Shown: positions 23,157-31,993 of the stretch, in pieces
Position numbering within the stretch: the first letter of the stretch is position 1
Layout: each line of letters opens with the position of its first letter
Assembly: GCA_015231605.1 (NCBI GenBank)
Contig: JADGBG010000001.1
Span: 1 to 64,000 of the forward strand
DNA length: 64,000 nt
From: Alphaproteobacteria bacterium
GTDB lineage: Bacteria; Pseudomonadota; Alphaproteobacteria; Rhodospirillales; Magnetovibrionaceae
Direction of reading: 5' to 3'
Position numbers and translations under genes: made by a program
Notes under the pieces: model-generated
What the model was told of the DNA's origin: nothing
Databases searched by the model: none
The model's input: only the letters and a program-made list of their open reading frames with translations

Positions 23157-23190
23157 CATCCCAACATATGGAAAGGCGGCCATGCAATGG

Positions 23191-23219
23191 TTGTCGTGTC
23201 CTGGGACAAATGCCAGAAT
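23191..23219 (+). promoter_or_regulatory. candidate promoter of the signalling block
   Basis: TTGTCG (-35) and CAGAAT (-10) are spaced by 17 bases, about 34 nt upstream of the binding-protein start. This would give the block transcription independent of the lepB-rnc-era operon. The -10 is imperfect. Confidence 0.35.
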
Positions 23220-23252
23220 TCAGGGGATCGGCATGCGTTGGGAGGGGAGATC

Positions 23253-24041
23253 ATGCGTCATCTGGGAATACGCGCGGCGTTCATCGTCGGCCTGTCGGCG
23301 CTCATGGTGCTTGGGCTGGGTTCGCGCGCGCGCGCGCAACAGCCTGACGTGGGCCCAACCATCACCATCGCCGCCGCGAATTCGACCTGCGACGCCATCG
23401 CCAGGGTCGGAGAGCTGTTCAAGGCCCGCCACGGTGGGGCGTTCGCGTTCATCTGCAAGGCGTCCGGACGTCTCGCCAAGGGCCTGATCGGATCGTCCAT
23501 CGAGGCCGATGTCTTCATATCCGCCAACCGGAAATGGATGGACACGATGATCGAGGCCGGCCTCATCGACGCCGCCACGGTTTCCAGCCTTTGGGGCAAC
23601 GGTTTGGTGGTGGCCGCCCCCTCGGCACATGCCCAGGCGCTTGGGCGTCTCGACGATCTGGCCGCCCCAGCGGTCCGGCAGATCATGATCGGCGACCCGA
23701 GCACCGCGCCGTTCGGCCGGTATTCCAAGCAGGCTTTGGAAAACGCCGGGGTTTGGGACGCCGTCCGCCCCAAGGTCGTGACGCGCAAACATATCACCTT
23801 GCTGGCGGAAAATCTGGCGGCGGCGGGCCCCGGGACCTACGGGATGCTGTTTTCCACCAACGTGAGCGAGGGGTTGAGCGCCGTCCTGGACGTCCCTGCG
23901 GACCTTCACGAGCCGGCCCGCTATTTTTCCGCGCCCCTCAAGGCGGCCGCCGACAGGACCGACGTTCACGCGTTCGTGCGGTTCATGGCCGAACCCGAAG
24001 CCCTCAAGGCCTTCACCGACCTGGGTTTCAAGACCGACTGA
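23253..24041 (+). CDS. ModA-like periplasmic substrate-binding protein
   Basis: The 262-residue precursor has a Sec signal peptide (cleavage near ARA-QQ, about residue 27). The mature part follows the molybdate-binding ModA pattern: TITIAAANSTCDAIARVGELF, then ASGRLAKGLIGSSIEADVFI, SANRKWMDTM, and GDPSTAPFGRYSKQALENAG. Two cysteines, in NSTC and in FICKASG, sit where ModA has its first ligand loops and could form a disulfide or bind a ligand. No ModB or ModC gene is nearby; the next gene, 3 nt on, is a membrane histidine kinase, so a sensory role is likely. The frame opens 22 codons earlier, but GGGAGGGGAG before this ATG is a far better ribosome site. Confidence 0.85.
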   Translation: MRHLGIRAAFIVGLSALMVLGLGSRARAQQPDVGPTITIAAANSTCDAIARVGELFKARHGGAFAFICKASGRLAKGLIGSSIEADVFISANRKWMDTMIEAGLIDAATVSSLWGNGLVVAAPSAHAQALGRLDDLAAPAVRQIMIGDPSTAPFGRYSKQALENAGVWDAVRPKVVTRKHITLLAENLAAAGPGTYGMLFSTNVSEGLSAVLDVPADLHEPARYFSAPLKAAADRTDVHAFVRFMAEPEALKAFTDLGFKTD

Positions 24042-24044
24042 CGA

Positions 24045-25643
24045 ATGAACGTGATGAACCGTTACAGCAACCTGCCCCTGTTCTGGCAACTGTTGATCCC
24101 CATGGCCCTGGTGACCGTGTTGTGGGTTTTGAGCGCCACCATGGGGGTGCACGGGCTCATGGAAAACCGTTCCCTGATGCACGGGCTGTATAACGACAAT
24201 GTCAAAACCGTGTTTCATCTGGATCGGTTGCGCAACGGCATGTCGGATCATACGGCCAGCTTGTTGCGCCATTTGGCGACGGAACAGTCGGTACAAATGG
24301 AACGGTTTCGCCAGGACATGCGCGACGCCCGCACGTCCGTGGAACAGACCATGTGGGAGTTGAGGGGGGATTTCTCCAAAGACCACACGATCGAGTCCCA
24401 AATCTTCACGCATATCCAGGAGTCCTTGTCGACGTACCTCCAATTGACCGAGGATGCCGTGAAACTGAGCGCCGATTTCGAAAAGGAAGCCGCGTTCGCC
24501 ACCTTCAACGTCGCCATTCAACACCACCTGAACCGCATAGATGGTTCCATCCGGGAGCTCCATGCCCTGGAGGAAAAGGGCATGGAGGACGCCTATGGCC
24601 ATTCCGTCCGTCTGGAGCGCCTGAACGCCTTCATCACGCTGTTCACCAGCCTGGGCGCGGGCGCGTTGTCGGTTTTTATCCTGGGGTGGATCGCGCGGCG
24701 GACGTCGCGGCGCCTCAAGGAGGTCGCGGACTGCGCCGCCGCCATGGGGAACGGCGATCTTCAAGCCCGGCCAAACAGTTCCGACGAAGACGAAATCGGC
24801 GACTTGGGCCGGGGGTTGGCGCTGATGGCCGGCCAGCTGGAAGAAACCATGGCCGAGCTCCAGGGCACCGCGAACCAATTGCGCGTGGCGCGGGACAAGC
24901 TGGCGAACCTGGTCGTCGAGCGCACCACGGAATTGGAGAGCGAAAAAAAGTTCAGCGCGTTGCAAAAAGAGTTCGTGTCCCTGGTCAGTCACGAATTCCG
25001 CACGCCGCTGGCGATCATCGACGGTTCCGCCCAGCGCATCATGCGCAAAAGCGACGCCATGTCCCCCGATCAGTTGATCGAGCGCGGAAAAACCATCCGC
25101 ACGGCGGTGGAACGCATGGTCAATCTGATCGACACCACGCTGTTCGCGGCCCGGCTGGACGAGGGGCGCATAGATCTGCTTCTTACGGACTGCGACTTGA
25201 AGACCCTTTTTCAGCATATCATCGGGCACGTCGGGGAGCTTTCCCCCCTTCACCGCATCACCCTGACCGCCGACGACGGACCGATCGCCATCATGGCCGA
25301 TCCCAAATTGTTGGAGCATGTTCTGACCAACCTTTTGAGCAACGCCATCAAATACGCGCCGAACGATCCGAGGATCGAGGTCGGCCTGCATCGGGACGGG
25401 AAGGGGGCCGTTTTCACCGTCCGGGATTACGGCGTCGGCATTCCCGAAGGCGAGATGCACCGCATGTTCGAACGCTATTTCCGCGCCCGCACCGCCCTGG
25501 GCATCAAGGGCACGGGATTGGGGCTCAGCGTCTGCCGGGAATTCGTCGAAATGCACGGCGGCACGATCTCGGTGGAAAGCGAGGAAGGCAAGGGCGCCTG
25601 TTTCACGGTGCGTTTGCCGGGGGACGGCGTGGCCGGTGACTGA
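24045..25643 (+). CDS. membrane sensor histidine kinase with four-helix periplasmic domain
   Basis: The 532-residue kinase has TM1 (about 12-34), a periplasmic helical domain of about 160 residues (35-194) resembling four-helix-bundle sensors, TM2 (195-217), HAMP (about 218-270), a coiled-coil linker, HisKA with H316 in SHEFRTPLAIID, and an HATPase domain with LLSNAIKYAPND, DYGVGIPEG and GTGLGLSVC. All catalytic boxes are intact. It starts 3 nt after the ModA-like gene, so the binding protein is the probable ligand-loaded input to the periplasmic domain. Its kinase core closely resembles that of the next gene. Confidence 0.9.
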   Translation: MNVMNRYSNLPLFWQLLIPMALVTVLWVLSATMGVHGLMENRSLMHGLYNDNVKTVFHLDRLRNGMSDHTASLLRHLATEQSVQMERFRQDMRDARTSVEQTMWELRGDFSKDHTIESQIFTHIQESLSTYLQLTEDAVKLSADFEKEAAFATFNVAIQHHLNRIDGSIRELHALEEKGMEDAYGHSVRLERLNAFITLFTSLGAGALSVFILGWIARRTSRRLKEVADCAAAMGNGDLQARPNSSDEDEIGDLGRGLALMAGQLEETMAELQGTANQLRVARDKLANLVVERTTELESEKKFSALQKEFVSLVSHEFRTPLAIIDGSAQRIMRKSDAMSPDQLIERGKTIRTAVERMVNLIDTTLFAARLDEGRIDLLLTDCDLKTLFQHIIGHVGELSPLHRITLTADDGPIAIMADPKLLEHVLTNLLSNAIKYAPNDPRIEVGLHRDGKGAVFTVRDYGVGIPEGEMHRMFERYFRARTALGIKGTGLGLSVCREFVEMHGGTISVESEEGKGACFTVRLPGDGVAGD

Positions 25644-25656
25644 ACCAGGGGGGGGC

Positions 25657-27672
25657 ATGGGAAAAACCGAACACGGGAATGACGACCGCATCTGGGCGCA
25701 TGCCATCGTCGAAATGGCCCCTGACGCCATCATCGGCGTGGACGGCCGGCAGCTCATCGTTTCCGCAAATCCAGCGGCGGCGGAGATATTCGGGTACGCC
25801 CAGGGCGAGTTGGTGGGCCAGTCCGTCGACATCCTGATCCCCGACGACATCCGCGCCCAACACGCCGCCATGTTCGAGCGTTTCATGGCCAGCGACCTGC
25901 GCGTCCTTGCCGGCGGCAAGAGCATGCCGGTTCGCGCCCAACGCAAGTCCGGGGACGTGTTCCAGGCCGAAGCGACCTTGTCCAAGGTGCCGCTGCCGAA
26001 CGGCGAGACGGGCGTCACGATCATGCTGCGCGACGTGACCGAGCGGGTCCGCGCAAACGAGGCGCTGCGCCGCAGCGAGGAGCGTTTTCGCGACTTCGCC
26101 GATACCGCGTCCGACTGGCTGTGGGAAATGGATGAAAATTTAAGGTTCATCTATCTTTCCGATGGCGTGAAATTGACCGTCGGGGGAAGCGTCGCCGCGG
26201 GCGGCATCATCGGCAAAACGCGCCGGGAACTGGCGGGCGAGGACACCGATGACGAAAAATGGCGAAAACACATGGCGCTTCTCGATGAGCACAAGCCGTT
26301 TCGTGAATTCGACTATACGTACGTGACGCACACGGGCGAATCGGTTCACGTCAGCATCAGCGGAAAACCCGTGTTCGACGCCGATGGCAACTTCAAGGGC
26401 TATCGGGGCGCCGGCCGGGACGTCACCGATGTGGTGCGTTACCAGAAAAAAATCGCCGTCAGCGAGGAACGGCTGCGGATGATCCTGGAAAGCTCTCCCG
26501 TACCCCTGGTGATGTCCGGGGGCGCCGACGGGCGGGTCCTGTTCGCCAATTCCGCTTGGAGGGCCGCGATCGAAGTCGAGTCCGACGACCTGGAAGGCCT
26601 CAAGATCGGGACTCTTTTCGCCGATGCCGGCGATCAGGCCGCCCTTGACCGCATCCTGTCCGAATCTCGCCACGTGCAGGGGCATTTGGTGCGGTTTCGC
26701 CGGTTGCGTTCGGGCGATGTGTTTTTCGCGTCCCTGAACGTCACGCGCATGGATTTCAACGGCGAAGAGGTCCTGATCACCGGCATTCTCGACATCACGG
26801 AGCGGATTGTCGCCGAACAGGCGCTACGCAAAAGCGAAAGCGAGTTGCGCCGTCACCGCGACCGCCTGGAGGAATTGGTCCACGACCGCACGCTCGAGTT
26901 GGAAAACAAGAACAGCCAACTCGAAATCGCGCTGGAGAGCGAAAAGCGTTACAGCGCCCTGCAACAGGAATTCGTGTCCCTGGTCAGCCACGAATTCCGC
27001 ACGCCCTTGACCATCATCGACAGTTCCGCCCAGCGCTTGCTGCGCCAAAAGGCCGAACTGGACGCCGAGACCTTGAAAGACCGCGTCGGCAAGATCCGCT
27101 CGGCGGTCAGCCGCATGACCATCCTGATCGAAAAAACACTGTACGCATCCCGTCTCGACGCCGGGAACGTGACCATGGAACCGGAATGGTTCGACCTGAC
27201 GTCCATGGCGCGGCGGGTCGTGGATCGCCAGCAGGAGGTCTGCGAACAGCACCACATCCGGATGGCCGTCGCGCCCGGCGCCGGCGAAATTTTCGGGGAT
27301 CCGGGACTGTTGGAGCAAGTGCTGGTGAACTTGCTCTCCAATGCCGTCAAATATTCCCCACAGGCGGACCATGTCGATGTTTCTTTGGGCATATGCAGCG
27401 CGACAGACGCCTCGAATCCCTTGAAAACGGATGCGTACGTCATGCGCGTCCGCGATTTCGGGTGCGGCATACCGGATGACGAGCGGCCTCAAATGTTTCA
27501 ACGCTTTTTCCGGGCATCCACGTCCAAGGGCATCCCCGGCACGGGGATCGGATTGAATGTCGTGCGCACGCTGGTGTCGTTGCACCAGGGCGAAATCGGA
27601 TTTTCCAGCAAGCCGGAGGAAGGGACAGAGTTCGTTGTTCATATCCCACGGGATTTTTCCGTTTTCCATTGA
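25657..27672 (+). CDS. soluble triple-PAS sensor histidine kinase
   Basis: The 671-residue protein has no membrane segment. Three PAS domains are visible (about 15-131, 141-261, 271-385), the first typical (APDAIIGVDG, NPAAAEIFGY), the second with DWLWEMDENLRFIYLS, the third with FANSAWRAAIEVE. A coiled coil leads to HisKA (H445 in SHEFRTPLTIID) and HATPase (LLSNAVKYSPQ, DFGCGIPDD, GTGIGLNVV). The linker-HisKA stretch is almost the same as in the preceding kinase (SEK-SALQ-EFVSLVSHEFRTPL), indicating duplication. The ATG chosen follows AGGGGGGG; an upstream GTG overlaps the previous stop. Confidence 0.9.
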   Translation: MGKTEHGNDDRIWAHAIVEMAPDAIIGVDGRQLIVSANPAAAEIFGYAQGELVGQSVDILIPDDIRAQHAAMFERFMASDLRVLAGGKSMPVRAQRKSGDVFQAEATLSKVPLPNGETGVTIMLRDVTERVRANEALRRSEERFRDFADTASDWLWEMDENLRFIYLSDGVKLTVGGSVAAGGIIGKTRRELAGEDTDDEKWRKHMALLDEHKPFREFDYTYVTHTGESVHVSISGKPVFDADGNFKGYRGAGRDVTDVVRYQKKIAVSEERLRMILESSPVPLVMSGGADGRVLFANSAWRAAIEVESDDLEGLKIGTLFADAGDQAALDRILSESRHVQGHLVRFRRLRSGDVFFASLNVTRMDFNGEEVLITGILDITERIVAEQALRKSESELRRHRDRLEELVHDRTLELENKNSQLEIALESEKRYSALQQEFVSLVSHEFRTPLTIIDSSAQRLLRQKAELDAETLKDRVGKIRSAVSRMTILIEKTLYASRLDAGNVTMEPEWFDLTSMARRVVDRQQEVCEQHHIRMAVAPGAGEIFGDPGLLEQVLVNLLSNAVKYSPQADHVDVSLGICSATDASNPLKTDAYVMRVRDFGCGIPDDERPQMFQRFFRASTSKGIPGTGIGLNVVRTLVSLHQGEIGFSSKPEEGTEFVVHIPRDFSVFH

Positions 27673-27744
27673 ACCCGTCGTGATAGGATGATGATGGGCT
27701 CGGCGCGATTTGACTCATGACGACATGAGCGAGGAGGGGGGGAC

Positions 27745-28611
27745 GTGACCACGATCGTCTACATCGAAGATGAACATGACATCCGCGAGGACGTGACCGA
27801 CGAATTGCAGGAAGCCGGGTACCGCGTGGTCGAGGCCGCGAACGCCCAGGAGGGGCTGGCCGCGATCCGCGCCGAAAAACCGGATCTCGTGCTGTGCGAT
27901 ATCTCCATGCCCGGCATGTCGGGATTGGAACTGTTGTCGCGTCTGCGCGACAAGGAGAGCCGTTTCGACGACCTCCCGTTCATCTTTCTGTCCGCACTGG
28001 CGGACCGCAACGACATTCTCGCCGGCAAACGGCTCGGCGCCGACGACTATCTGACGAAACCCGTCGACATGGAGCTGTTGTTGGCCACGATCGAGGCCCG
28101 GCTGGGTCAGATCCGGCGTATCGAGAACAAGAAAAACCGTCAGTTCGTGAAGCTCTACACGGCACTGACCGGGCGGAAATTGCCCGTGGACGCATCAAAC
28201 ATCGCCGACTTCGTCGAAGAGGCGAAGGCGGACCGTCCGGTTTTGCAGGTTTTCATCGTCGCCGATGGAAAAATGGACCTGAGTTCCGTTCGATCCATCC
28301 TTGAAAGCGGCGGTCACGCGGTACACATCTTGAAAGGTGGACGGGATTTTATGTCTCGTTTGGATCGCGGAGCAGCGGTGGACGTGGTGCTGGTTTCCTA
28401 TTTCACCGAGGATTTCGCCGCGCCGCTGCTGTTGAAGTTGATCCAGGACACCTATCATTTGGAATGCCCGGTCATGTTGCTGTTGCCCGACGATTTGAAG
28501 AAAACGGTGCGCGAAGAACAAAAATCCTTGTTCGACGCGGTCGTCCTGATGCCGTGTTCCGCGGACGATTTCGCGGAGGCGTTGCTGCAATTGTTGCCGC
28601 AATCCGACTGA
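27745..28611 (+). CDS. response regulator with receiver plus degenerate second receiver
   Basis: The 288-residue protein has a complete N-terminal receiver (acid pair in YIEDEHD, D52 in LVLCDISMPGMSG, S83 and K105). Residues about 165-288 look like a second receiver (VLQVFIVADGKMDLSSVRSIL, VDVVLVSYFTEDF) in which the phosphoacceptor Asp is Ser and the Lys-Pro is Met-Pro, so it cannot be phosphorylated in the usual way. There is no DNA-binding or enzymatic output. GTG start after a GGAGGGGGGG ribosome site. Confidence 0.85.
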   Translation: MTTIVYIEDEHDIREDVTDELQEAGYRVVEAANAQEGLAAIRAEKPDLVLCDISMPGMSGLELLSRLRDKESRFDDLPFIFLSALADRNDILAGKRLGADDYLTKPVDMELLLATIEARLGQIRRIENKKNRQFVKLYTALTGRKLPVDASNIADFVEEAKADRPVLQVFIVADGKMDLSSVRSILESGGHAVHILKGGRDFMSRLDRGAAVDVVLVSYFTEDFAAPLLLKLIQDTYHLECPVMLLLPDDLKKTVREEQKSLFDAVVLMPCSADDFAEALLQLLPQSD

Positions 28612-28644
28612 CCGTCGGTCCGGTCCGAAGTGGGGATTTGAGGT

Positions 28645-29754
28645 TTGGTTAAGGTCCTGTGCATAGAAGATGAAGAGGCCTTGCGCCACGACATCGTCGA
28701 GGAACTCGTCGATGCCGGTTACGAGACCGCGGAGGCCCGCGATGGCGCCGAAGGGTTGCGGGCGATCCTCGCCCACAAGCCCGATCTGGTGCTGTGCGAC
28801 ATCACCATGCCGGGCATGACGGGGTTGGAGTTGCTGGAGCGGCTGCGCAACGACCATCCCGAATGCGACGCCATCCCGTTTTTGTTTCTGTCCGCCCTGG
28901 CGGGACGAAAGGACATCGTCGCCGGGCGTGAACTGGGCGCGGACGACTATCTGACCAAGCCGGTCGATTACGAAATCCTTCTCGCCACGCTGCGCTCCCG
29001 CCTTGGCCAGGTCCAACGACTGGATCGACTGCACAAGGAAGACATCGCGAAGCTGCGGGAATCCATCCTGCGCATGCTGCCCCATGAACTGCGCACGCCG
29101 CTCAACCATATTCTCGGCTATTCAGAGATGATCGACTCCGAAATGTTCGGGCCGTTGGGCCACCCGAACTACAAGGAATACGCCCATCTGATCCACGCCA
29201 GCGGCTCCCGCCTTTTGGGCATCGTCGAAGACGTGCTGACGCTGTTGGACGTTTCGACGGGCGAGCTTGTCCTTCACCCGGGCGACTGCGATTTGGCGGA
29301 CATGGTGCAGGCCTGCATCGCCGGCGTGCGCGATTTTGCCGAACAGTCGGAAACCAAACTGTACTGGAAAGCCGAAAACAACGATTGCACCCTGTATACG
29401 GACTGCGCCCTGCTGAAGCGCGCGGTGGACGTGGTGGTGCTGAACGCCGTGAAGTTTTCCGGCCCCAACGCCAAGATCGAGGTGCTCATCCGCGATCTGG
29501 ATGGGGGGGCGAAGTGGGAAATCCGCATTCGGGACAACGGCCCCGGCATTGCCGAAGACGAATTGGAGCGCGTCATGGAGCCGTTCACCCAGGGGGGCGG
29601 CAGGGACGACAGGATGACCCGGACGCACGAGGGGACGGGGCTCGGCCTGCCGTTGTCCAAGGCCTTGACGGAAACCTTGCGGGGCGACTTCCAATTGATC
29701 AGCGCCAAGGGCAAGGGAACGACCGTGATCATGACCATGCCACATTTGAAATGA
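28645..29754 (+). CDS. receiver-histidine kinase fusion (REC-HisKA-HATPase)
   Basis: The 369-residue soluble protein starts with a complete receiver (D52 in LVLCDITMPGMTG, K105 in DDYLTKPVD) followed directly by HisKA (H147 in LPHELRTPLNHILGYSE) and HATPase (LNAVKFSG, DNGPGIAED, GTGLGLPLSK). Such proteins take phosphate at the receiver to control their own kinase. The receiver is close to those of the genes on either side. No ATG exists at the required position; TTG (VKVLCIEDE) is the only sensible start, which suggests low expression. Confidence 0.85.
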   Translation: MVKVLCIEDEEALRHDIVEELVDAGYETAEARDGAEGLRAILAHKPDLVLCDITMPGMTGLELLERLRNDHPECDAIPFLFLSALAGRKDIVAGRELGADDYLTKPVDYEILLATLRSRLGQVQRLDRLHKEDIAKLRESILRMLPHELRTPLNHILGYSEMIDSEMFGPLGHPNYKEYAHLIHASGSRLLGIVEDVLTLLDVSTGELVLHPGDCDLADMVQACIAGVRDFAEQSETKLYWKAENNDCTLYTDCALLKRAVDVVVLNAVKFSGPNAKIEVLIRDLDGGAKWEIRIRDNGPGIAEDELERVMEPFTQGGGRDDRMTRTHEGTGLGLPLSKALTETLRGDFQLISAKGKGTTVIMTMPHLK

Positions 29755-29764
29755 GTGATCTTAA

Positions 29765-31441
29765 ATGTCCCGGGTACTTTGCATCGACGACGAAGATCTG
29801 ATTCGAGAAGACCTCATCGAAGAGCTGACGGACGCCGGCCACGAAGTGCGCGGCGCGCGCGACGGCGTGGAAGGTCTTGAAGCCATCTACCAATTCAACC
29901 CGGACGTGGTTCTGTGCGACGTCAACATGCCGAACATGAACGGCCATGAACTGTTGCGCGAACTGCGCGCCAACCATCCGGAAAAATCCAACGTCCCGTT
30001 CATCTTTCTGACGGCCTTCGGAGGCAGCGGCAATGTCGTCGACGGCTTGCAGATGGGGGCGGACGACTATTTGACCAAGCCGGTCGAATACGACTTGCTG
30101 CTGGCCAAGATTGAATCCGCCCAGCGCGTGCGCGACTCCTATGAAACGAAAATCGCCTATGCCTCCCACTTCGACAGCGTGACGGGACTGCCCAACAGGG
30201 TGCTGGCGTTGGACCGCTTGTTGCAGCAGTTGGCGCACGGTTATGAACGCCAAGACCGTATCGCCGCGCTGACGGTGGGCGTCATCGATTTCAAGAAGAT
30301 CACGGACGCCATGGGGCGTGCGGCGGGCGACATGGTCCTGCGCGAGGCCGCCCAACGGATTTCCGCTTGTGTCGGCGATGAGGAAACCGTCGCCTTTCTC
30401 GGCGGTTCCGAGTTTCTCGTGATCGCGTCCGACCGGAACTATAACGCCGAAACGATCGTGCGCCGCGTCATCGACGCCTTCGATACGCCGGTTTTCGCGG
30501 AATCCCAGGAAATCAAGGTCGGCGTGTCGGTCGGCGCCGCCATCTTCCCCGACGACGCCCAGGATCCGTTCACCATGTTGCGCAACGCGGATGCCGCCAT
30601 GTCCTTGGCCGCGCAGGAAGGCGGGGGGAGTTACCGGTTTTTCCGCAGAGAGCTCAGCGATCAGGTCGAACAGCGCATGCTGCTGGAAGCCCTCCTCAAC
30701 AGCGCCCTGGAACGCGATGAATTCGCGCTCCTCTACCAGCCCATCATCGACGGGGCGTCGGGCCGGATCGTTGCCGCCGAGGCCTTGTTGCGCTGGAACA
30801 ATCCCGAGGTGGACAGGGCCGGACCCGACGTTTTCATCCCCATCGTCGAACGGAACGGCCAGATCCTGCCCATCGGCGAATGGGCGTTGCGGACCGCGTG
30901 CCGGCAGGCGAAGACCTGGAACGATGTTCATGGATTTCCCGTCAAGATGGCGGTGAACCTGTCCGCCCGTCAGTTCACTTCCGGTGATCTGGTCGGCGTC
31001 GTCCGCAAGATTCTGGAGGAAACGGGCTTGTCTCCGAGACTTTTGGAGTTGGAGGTCACGGAGCGCTTGCTGATGGACGACAGCCACGACCTCATGTCCA
31101 CCATGACCGCCTTGCGCGACATCGGCGTCTCGTTGTCCATCGATGACTTTGGGACCGGGTATTCGGCTCTGAGTTATCTGAAGAAATACCCGTTCGACAC
31201 TCTGAAGGTCGACCGCGCCTTCGTGTCCGGCGTCGAGGACGATGAGTCCGACGCCACGTTGGTGCGGGCGATCGTCGCCATGGCCCATGGTCTGCGCCTG
31301 GAAGTGGTGGCGGAAGGTATCGAAAGCGCGGGACAGCAGACGTTCTTGAAAACGTTGAACGTCGAGTATCTCCAAGGCTATCATTTCGCCAGACCCCTCT
31401 CGGCCGAGGATTTCACGGCCCTGCTGAGAGACGAACAGTGA
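29765..31441 (+). CDS. receiver-GGDEF(degenerate)-EAL cyclic-di-GMP phosphodiesterase
   Basis: The 558-residue protein has a receiver (D52 in VVLCDVNMPNMNG, K105), a GGDEF domain (about 130-295) whose active-site loop reads GGSEF (213-217) and whose metal and base-binding residues are also altered (VIDFKKITDAMGRAAGD), and an EAL domain (about 305-555). The EAL catalytic set is intact: E339 in EALLRW, N398 in AVNLSARQ, the acidic pair in SIDDFGTGYS, K481 in LKVDRAF, and E517 in VVAEGIE. It should therefore degrade cyclic-di-GMP under phosphorylation control and lack cyclase activity. Confidence 0.9.
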   Translation: MSRVLCIDDEDLIREDLIEELTDAGHEVRGARDGVEGLEAIYQFNPDVVLCDVNMPNMNGHELLRELRANHPEKSNVPFIFLTAFGGSGNVVDGLQMGADDYLTKPVEYDLLLAKIESAQRVRDSYETKIAYASHFDSVTGLPNRVLALDRLLQQLAHGYERQDRIAALTVGVIDFKKITDAMGRAAGDMVLREAAQRISACVGDEETVAFLGGSEFLVIASDRNYNAETIVRRVIDAFDTPVFAESQEIKVGVSVGAAIFPDDAQDPFTMLRNADAAMSLAAQEGGGSYRFFRRELSDQVEQRMLLEALLNSALERDEFALLYQPIIDGASGRIVAAEALLRWNNPEVDRAGPDVFIPIVERNGQILPIGEWALRTACRQAKTWNDVHGFPVKMAVNLSARQFTSGDLVGVVRKILEETGLSPRLLELEVTERLLMDDSHDLMSTMTALRDIGVSLSIDDFGTGYSALSYLKKYPFDTLKVDRAFVSGVEDDESDATLVRAIVAMAHGLRLEVVAEGIESAGQQTFLKTLNVEYLQGYHFARPLSAEDFTALLRDEQ

Positions 31442-31465
31442 CCGTGAAGCAGGGGAGGTAGTCTC

Positions 31466-31837
31466 ATGAACAGTACGCGCAGGCAGTTTTTGATGGGCTT
31501 CGTCGGGTCCATGGCGGTGGCGGGGGCCGCTTACGGCGACGACGACCGGATGAAGGCGCTCAAGGACGATCAGGAAAAGCGCAAGGCCGAACATGACAAG
31601 CGCAAAGAGGAAATGAAGGCCGATCACGACAAGCGCAAGGACGAAATGAAGTCCGAAATGGAAAAGCGCAAGGCCGAGCATGACGCCGAACGCGAGGCCC
31701 AGAAGAAGCGCATCGAAGCCGAACGGGAATCCCACATGAAAGAGGTCGAGGCCCGCAAGGCGCAAATGAAAGCCGATCACGAAGCCCGCAAAAAGGACAT
31801 GGAAGACCGTTGGAAAGGCGGCAAGAAGGACAAATAA
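31466..31837 (+). CDS. exported hendecad-repeat coiled-coil protein
   Basis: The 123-residue precursor has an N-terminal export signal with an RRQF twin-arginine-like motif (TRRQFLMGFVGSMAVAGAAYG). The mature part is almost entirely Lys/Glu/Asp/Arg/Met/His and divides exactly into eight 11-residue units (residues 31-118), each ending in Ala, Ser or Gly, for example EHDKRKEEMKA and DHDKRKDEMKS. This predicts a long straight helix or hendecad coiled coil. I recognise no family. It is the last gene of the signalling block, 24 nt after the EAL gene, and is followed by a hairpin. Confidence 0.8.
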   Translation: MNSTRRQFLMGFVGSMAVAGAAYGDDDRMKALKDDQEKRKAEHDKRKEEMKADHDKRKDEMKSEMEKRKAEHDAEREAQKKRIEAERESHMKEVEARKAQMKADHEARKKDMEDRWKGGKKDK

Positions 31838-31860
31838 TTCCGCTTTCGCCGCACACCAAA

Positions 31861-31882
31861 GGCCCGCGCCCCGGCGCGGGCC
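31861..31882 (+). terminator. strong GC hairpin ending the signalling block
   Basis: The perfect arms GGCCCGCGCC and GGCGCGGGCC flank a two-base loop, 23 nt after the hendecad-protein stop. A short TTTT follows only seven bases later, so termination strength is uncertain. It separates the accessory block from recO. Confidence 0.55.
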
Positions 31883-31993
31883 GATGCGTTTTGCGTGAGC
31901 GTGGTGGGGCATCCGTGTCCGCGCCGTCGACCCGCAAACGCACATTCGGAATTTCGCCTTTGCCCCATAAGCCGCGCGGGGCACAATGCGGCC

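Follow-up and report, generated by a model that had tools for sequence, protein, structure and literature searches.

A charged eleven-residue repeat protein with a predicted export signal beside a sensory gene block: a candidate envelope protectant in an alphaproteobacterium

The window analysed here, a stretch of 64,000 nucleotides from an alphaproteobacterium of the order Rhodospirillales, carries a small gene whose product (hereafter the hendecad protein) is built around eight gapless 11-residue units, with the charge pattern of a salt-bridged helix bearing a thin Met/His/hydrophobic stripe. Our proposal, which is tentative and held with somewhat less than even confidence, is that this product is an exported polyampholyte rod that acts by its charge and shape, probably as an envelope protectant in the manner of Asr- and LEA-type proteins. 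The proposal draws on codon usage, periodicity, face pattern, salt-bridge pattern, gene order and the lack of a family, all of which were computed, and on a predicted helix and predicted Tat export; envelope protection itself is inferred.

In outline, the precursor would be exported, most likely via Tat, and the mature polyampholyte of ~99 residues, with a net charge near zero, would form or readily adopt one straight helix of ~14 nm. The 11-residue unit, of three turns, would line up Met, His and hydrophobic residues in a thin stripe along one face and Ala, Ser and Gly in another along the opposite face, with i+3/i+4 salt bridges holding the rod. In the periplasm, the charge-dense chain would protect or chaperone membranes or envelope proteins, and would be made along with the upstream sensory operon. 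Its sequence seems able to change as long as its charge and helix persist, and it is therefore probably a physical agent there.

Table 1. Positions of the hendecad gene, its parts and its surroundings in the window.
Feature	Position	Strand	Basis and remarks
Co-directional sensory block upstream	23187..31441	+	Pfam; NCBIfam modA above cut-off
Shine-Dalgarno-like stretch AGGGGAGG	31451..31458	+	Sequence reading; seven bases 5' of ATG
Hendecad-protein gene, stop included (123 aa)	31466..31837	+	ORF list and codon statistics
Putative N-terminal signal, residues 1-24 (MNSTRRQFLMGFVGSMAVAGAAYG), Tat-type RRQFL	31466..31537	+	Sequence reading, cut by eye
Eight gapless 11-residue units, residues 31-118	31556..31819	+	Period 11; A/S/G last; predicted helix 26-118
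Units 1-4: ALKDDQEKRKA, EHDKRKEEMKA, DHDKRKDEMKS, EMEKRKAEHDA			
Units 5-8: EREAQKKRIEA, ERESHMKEVEA, RKAQMKADHEA, RKKDMEDRWKG			
DNA tandem arrays, 21-nt and 33-nt periods, within the gene	31561..31671	+	Tandem Repeats Finder
Terminator-like hairpin, 9 G-C pairs	31861..31882	+	Pattern scan; 23 nt 3' of stop codon

An earlier sequence-only reading had split residues 31-118 without gaps into eight hendecads ending in Ala, Ser or Gly, and this division held up: the last position is A, S or G in all eight units, which none of 2000 shuffles matched in any of the 11 phases, and a scan of other periods from 5 to 15 for the same small-residue column found none that stands out. Identity at offset 11 (31 of 80 residue pairs, residues 28-118) also lies well above the shuffle mean of 10.1 (sd 2.9, z 7.3), and was equalled by none of 5000 shuffles even when the maximum over offsets 1-59 was used. 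The same reading called the repeats exact, which is right for the length and register of the units but wrong for their sequence, as most pairs share only 0-4 residues; the exceptions are units 2 and 3, with 8 of 11, and the pairs 2/4 and 5/6, each with 6 of 11. Two successive units had been described as near-identical in DNA, and units 2 and 3 do indeed match at 28 of 33 bases.

The sensory block runs from a ModA-like binding protein through a HAMP kinase, a PAS kinase, a response regulator (RR), an RR-kinase and an RR-GGDEF-EAL protein to the hendecad gene, which is its last member, as had been claimed: it points in the same direction, begins 24 nt past the stop codon of the RR-GGDEF-EAL gene (29765-31441), and is followed by a terminator-like hairpin. 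This hairpin is suggestive at best as a terminator, since such sites are about equally common in shuffled DNA (13 in the region versus 11.3 in shuffles, by pattern scan). The hendecad gene is presumably co-expressed with the upstream block, and a promoter-like site within the EAL gene (31355-31384, 9 of 12 matches by pattern scan) makes its separate transcription possible as well. The ModA-type molybdate-binding protein (23187-24041) is encoded directly 5' of the HAMP kinase, with no transporter genes in the block, and the two may sense molybdate or a different oxyanion, with the binding protein feeding the sensor.

The whole block occupies a variable site between era and recO (23157-31985, with 8.7 kb of sensory block here). 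Eight related genomes have both genes on one fetched stretch; the two are adjacent in three of them (G002, G011, G014) and 1.6-4.5 kb apart in the other five (G001, G003, G009, G012, G015), and the block proteins found no matches on the fetched stretch of any of the eight. It is this varying spacing, and the lack of the block there in all eight relatives, that marks the site as variable.

One way to read such an arrangement is that the protein is a periplasmic accessory, whose helix would tune signalling by binding either the ModA-like protein or the HAMP kinase, the latter at its helical sensor domain. CpxP acting on CpxA and ZraP acting on ZraS are precedents for this. The position of the gene at the end of the block, the 4HB_MCP helical sensor domain that Pfam finds in the kinase, and the ModA-type protein with which the block opens would all suit an accessory, as would the signalling genes that lie near two of the look-alikes discussed below (GGDEF at ~0.5 kb in G015, MCP at ~2 kb in G053). 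The wider comparison argues otherwise. The core order HK-RR-RRHK-RRGGDEFEAL recurs in G299, a genome of another family (L046, on the same contig as L054), which has the only other complete core found, and no repeat gene lies beside it there; the next ORF, which has a 4-nt overlap with the GGDEF-EAL gene, encodes another sensor that continues up to the end of the contig, so that a hendecad-type gene could still lie farther on. The RR-kinase itself has relatives at E up to 1e-70 in only two others of 199 genomes of the order (ten candidates scored per genome), and no comparable hendecad gene was seen at the 79 best loci kept of 299 found with RR-kinase relatives. The ORF filter used for this (start codon, hydrophobic N-terminus, charge over 45%) is crude and covered fetched stretches only; it passed 18 ORFs in 131 loci, namely three copies of the window's gene, one from G015, and others that were not comparable by eye. 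A check for co-occurrence of homologues with the adjacent kinases thus found 0 comparable genes in the 79 loci or in the complete core of L046, and with look-alikes in varied settings besides, the functional tie to the kinases that had been suggested finds no support. The link of the hendecad gene to the kinases is one of position only, and we consider an accessory role unlikely.

A protein of 62 aa that looks exported and has two Cys (CPEG...W.EEKK..CEK) is encoded directly 5' of a response-regulator homologue at two other loci (L070, 6136-6399; L071, 2633-2821), in a Methyloligella and a Hyphomicrobiales MAG.

Relatives of the protein are few and loosely drawn. The gene is single-copy in its own genome, and a search of 317 genomes of the order, with 13 candidates scored per genome, gave no clear orthologue; at E up to 0.001 there are matches in five genomes, counting the window's own. 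Only one of the four non-self matches, G015, is a short, signal-bearing, charged protein (E 7.7e-5), and the remaining three (L003, L040 and L041, in G029, G130 and G131) fall inside frames of 324-385 aa. When the G015 protein was used as a query, with 15 candidates scored per genome, 9 of 314 genomes matched at E up to 1e-4, including the hendecad gene (E 3.8e-6; found again as L165) and G015 itself. In G053, G260, G121, G291, G138 and G012 the matches are short proteins whose charged chain follows what looks by eye like an export signal; G239 (L169) was set aside as having an Arg/Asp/Gly-rich chain, not of the helix type, and was left out of the periodicity test. A class-level search, scoring 11 candidates per genome, gave 38 rows from 37 of 385 genomes at E up to 0.01 and added G517 (E 5e-8); the other 36 rows are frames of at least 157 aa, several of them stomatin/SPFH-like by eye, and were taken as coiled-coil composition. 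Because a limited number of candidates was scored per genome, weak relatives may be missed, and because the queries are periodic and charged, the matches are biased towards proteins of that kind. Elsewhere, a scan of contigs of named genomes gave 16 pattern matches with no confirmed relative, a plasmid search found no relatives, and 13 weak phage matches (E 0.4 to 1), 12 of them in tape-measure proteins, were also attributed to composition.

Nine sequences (the hendecad protein and those of G015, G053, G260, G121, G291, G138, G012 and G517) were tested for periodicity. Among offsets 1-30, offset 11 ranks first in seven of them, the hendecad protein included, though only weakly in G260 (z 2.7); the two exceptions are G121 and G517. 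Similarity of the mature part to the hendecad protein is clear for G053 and G517 (0 of 2000 shuffles), marginal for G015, G138 and G291 (p 0.0085-0.0225), and not significant for G012 (p 0.05), G121 (p 0.39) and G260 (p 0.95). An excess of paired charges is significant in G012 and not significant in G015, G053 and G138. RR-type signals, judged by eye, occur in the hendecad gene, G015, G053, G260 and possibly G121, while the others look Sec-like. The neighbours are just as mixed: a molybdopterin oxidoreductase and the GGDEF protein in G015, an rpsI-like gene (by eye) and the MCP in G053, the same rpsI-like gene in G260, and acetyl-CoA synthetase-like, luciferase-like, beta-eliminating lyase and HAD hydrolase genes in G138, G291, G012 and G517, respectively. 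Within the genus of G053, a look-alike near the rpsI-like gene was seen in two of six genomes by a looser filter on fetched flanks, which also let through a fragment resembling rplM and a 63-aa ORF that is unrelated. What these proteins have in common is not sequence; they keep their charge, their export and, in many cases, the 11-residue period. They form a loose, patchy set in the order, alike in kind, that may share kinship with the hendecad protein.

Two of the look-alikes merit separate mention. That of G015 is followed by a molybdopterin oxidoreductase operon, one that includes a DmsC-type anchor (L170, 1429-6245), and adjoins a small RR-signal protein that is rubredoxin-like by eye. The exported-looking protein of G138 (L166, 1148-1513) holds a very clean array (KDQRDKLKVQQ / KDERDRLRVDQ / KAQRDKLKAEQ), with a z of 8.0 at offset 11 and a weak Asr match.

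For the hendecad protein, AlphaFold2, run on the single sequence, gives one helix over residues 26-118, with mean pLDDT of 92-97 for blocks over residues 31-110 and a length of ~14 nm at 0.15 nm per residue. Such a high-confidence helix for a charged protein can mislead, since BilRI of Aggregatibacter actinomycetemcomitans was predicted to be helical and yet proved largely disordered by NMR (PMC8096337). Charge is denser than the earlier estimate of almost every other residue: D, E, K and R make up 66% of the 99 residues that follow the signal (cut after residue 24, as set by eye), and the net charge is near neutral at +3. Pairs of opposite and same charge stand at 28:5 at i+3 (z 3.6) and 28:12 at i+4 (z 2.5), while at i+11 like charges dominate by 35:12; an oppositely charged partner occurs at i±3/4 for 92% of charged residues versus 79% in shuffles (p 0.011). 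Independently of the model, one set of residues (H, M, I, L, V, F, W and Y) and another (A, S and G) both have their maximum at 99.0 degrees per residue (0 of 500 shuffles in each case). At 98.2 degrees the first set has a phase of 271 and the second of 99, which places them on nearly opposite faces; both residue sets were picked after the pattern was seen. The earlier suggestion of a long, straight, charged helix is thus one with which the single-sequence model and the salt-bridge and face statistics agree.

A straight helix of this length might also be a free-standing periplasmic strut or spacer, attached to the envelope at one or both ends, with its length set by the number of units. An angle of 99 degrees per residue suits a stripe that hardly winds, and single alpha-helices are described as rigid connectors and springs (PMC5812594, PMC4183817). 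Connectors, however, normally join domains, and neither end of the hendecad protein has an anchoring or binding domain besides the signal; moreover, the lengths of eight look-alikes after the signal, with cuts made by eye, vary from 57 to 101 residues. A strut is about as unlikely as an accessory role.

The stripe itself raises another reading, that of a coiled-coil or filament-forming structural or adhesive protein in which the Met/His/hydrophobic residues would zip helices together into a hendecad coiled coil. Unit positions 2, 5 and 9 do form a significant hydrophobic/His stripe, with the small-residue stripe opposite, but it is weak: 10 of the 24 residues at these positions are Arg, Lys, Asp or Gln, and the Eisenberg hydrophobic moment shows no excess over shuffles in the helical range (p 0.99). 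Nor is there an excess for all uncharged residues (p 0.76) or for acids (p 0.27), and it follows that the helix is not a classical amphipathic one; the helical-range moment does exceed shuffles for Arg (p 0.004) and Lys (p 0.012). Searches for structural relatives gave little for a coiled coil to build on: sequence comparison with solved structures returned seven rows at E 0.32-0.89, none convincing, and a Foldseek search of the PDB returned 0 matches, a lone helix being a poor query. We regard a coiled coil as rather improbable.

It must also be asked whether the ORF, which was found exactly where the earlier reading had placed it (123 codons and a stop), is a gene with a role at all. As an orphan with no clear orthologue and with tandem arrays at the DNA level, it could be a recently expanded low-complexity frame without function. 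Tandem Repeats Finder reports a 21-nt array (31561-31612) that overlaps a 33-nt array (31583-31671), with scores of 62 and 120, and offsets 7, 18, 29 and 51 are enriched in the protein along with offset 11. From these extra offsets and overlapping arrays, it seems that duplications of 7 and 11 residues were probably mixed. Seven residues make about two helical turns and 11 about three, so either duplication leaves the helix in phase, and the array would appear to have grown by in-frame duplication of such phase-preserving units. Still, the differences between units 2 and 3 are conservative (E/D twice, A/S once), and in its codon statistics the gene is like its neighbours. With a codon log-likelihood trained on ten neighbouring genes, its own frame scores 0.49 per codon and the five other frames -0.96 to 0.23; its GC3 is 0.77 versus 0.76-0.86 for neighbours, and its CAI-like index of 0.786 compares with 0.652-0.786 for the same ten genes. 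The possibility that the frame is untranslated was examined, and these codon statistics, along with the Shine-Dalgarno-like site, support translation, which is likely.

The signal also appears to be intact. By eye, the N-terminus reads STRRQFLMG; a mildly hydrophobic stretch comes next, and then a polar mature start. A motif of the RRxFL type is the mark of a Tat signal. The genome encodes TatC (E 4.0e-73), and the RR-type export signal of the earlier reading is borne out so far as inspection by eye allows. The precursor is most likely exported by the Tat pathway, as judged from its sequence, and Sec may be an alternative. Given the codon statistics, the ribosome-binding-like site, the signal and the conservative changes, a roleless ORF is quite improbable. 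Least probable of all is a periplasmic metal buffer working through the Met/His stripe, an output that had also been suggested; the 12 His/Met in 99 residues, the one-sided hydrophobic/His set and the approach of the G053 look-alike to Metal_resist (E 7.7e-6, 26.5 bits, cut-off 29.2) speak for it, but the closest look-alike, that of G015, has one His/Met in 72 residues, and no Metal_resist or other metal-family Pfam row appears for the hendecad protein at E up to 1.

An envelope protectant ranks as the best of these readings, above a kinase accessory, a spacer, a coiled coil and a metal buffer. A bolder and decidedly improbable extension is that Rhodospirillales-type bacteria export a whole class of periplasmic rods, whose sequence drifts while charge, helix phase and the 11-residue period are kept. 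Such rods would grow by steps of 7 or 11 residues and serve as length-tunable envelope protectants or rulers, and they would be exported by Tat because they are already folded. If the hendecad rod itself is real, it would mean that bacteria can export simple salt-bridged repeat rods with no other domain, and that genes for them can arise and land beside signalling operons quickly. It would make a clean test case for the Tat carriage of stand-alone helices and for whether charge pattern alone, as opposed to sequence, can protect an envelope. Should it turn out to be one more hydrophilic protein of the stress type, it adds modestly to the LEA-like and Asr-like proteins.

How the protein compares with known systems bears on the earlier statement that it has no family. 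This stands for Pfam and NCBIfam, in which no model, and hence no characterised family offering another explanation, reaches its cut-off; it does not stand as to kind, given LEA-like 11-mer proteins, Asr and single alpha-helix domains. A CCDC90-like match (PF07798) was rejected at 18.8 bits versus a gathering threshold of 33.5, and it falls to 11.4 when the signal is removed. Proteins of the Spy/CpxP/ZraP and Metal_resist types are small, exported and helical, and are often encoded near two-component systems. The hendecad protein differs from them in being repeat-built and in having no Pfam row for either. The LTxxQ motif, which characterises Spy/CpxP/ZraP-type proteins, was sought by eye and is absent from it. 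No description of a Tat-exported, stand-alone charged helix turned up among the papers listed by searches of the open-licence PMC literature.

Two kinds with the same repeat length are the group 3 LEA proteins and BilRI. Like the former, the hendecad protein has tandem 11-residue units, is hydrophilic and is predicted to form a helix, and the core of DosH, a bacterial group 3 LEA protein, also comprises eight 11-mers (PMC8123400, PMC10295645). The hendecad protein carries more charge and fewer Ala than the published group 3 consensus 11-mer, and the LEA_4 profile gives no row for it at E up to 1. The group 3 motif (apolar at 1, 2, 5 and 9; charged or amide at 3, 6, 7, 8 and 11) is not recovered either, with 34% apolar and 78% charged/amide in the best register (p 0.602 versus 1000 shuffles, or 0.691 if His is counted as apolar). 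BilRI is described as an outer-membrane protein with eleven 11-mers, 10 of which end in KD[A/T] (PMC8096337). It too has exported bacterial 11-mer repeats with regular Lys, Asp/Glu and Ala and a small residue or Thr at the unit end, a likeness drawn from description and not from sequence comparison; BilRI differs in its outer-membrane location, its Pasteurellaceae host and its disorder by NMR, and the hendecad protein differs in its RR-type signal, its many Arg and its Met/His stripe.

Another parallel is Asr, the acid resistance repetitive basic protein of enterobacteria (NF033636), which is likewise small, repetitive and charged, and is periplasmic, as the hendecad protein is predicted to be. 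Asr is described as a chaperone of the periplasm that is intrinsically disordered, and acid stress strongly raises its production (PMC10746267). Asr is named as basic, whereas the hendecad protein is near neutral. The Asr model (cut-off 50 bits) is not among the best 25 of its 30 NCBIfam rows, the best of which scores 17.1 bits; two look-alikes match Asr weakly, at 20.5 and 19.3 bits, below the same cut-off.

Finally, in terms of physics, the protein resembles the single alpha-helices (SAH/CSAH), which are described as E/K/R-rich helices with i+3/i+4 salt bridges (PMC5347031, PMC5812594). Its charged residues show the same above-chance i+3/i+4 spacing. These helices lack a hydrophobic seam and are monomeric in solution, and here there is a weak Met/His/hydrophobic stripe, significant for the chosen set and not by the Eisenberg moment; SAH scoring penalises a partly hydrophobic stripe of this kind. 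SAHs are described as parts of larger, mostly eukaryotic proteins (PMC5347031, PMC5812594), whereas the hendecad protein would be a whole exported protein. On the tests run, it is a protein that would work like the LEA, Asr and SAH kinds; it falls outside the LEA and Asr models, and it shares with SAHs the salt-bridge pattern, though not clearly the lack of a seam.
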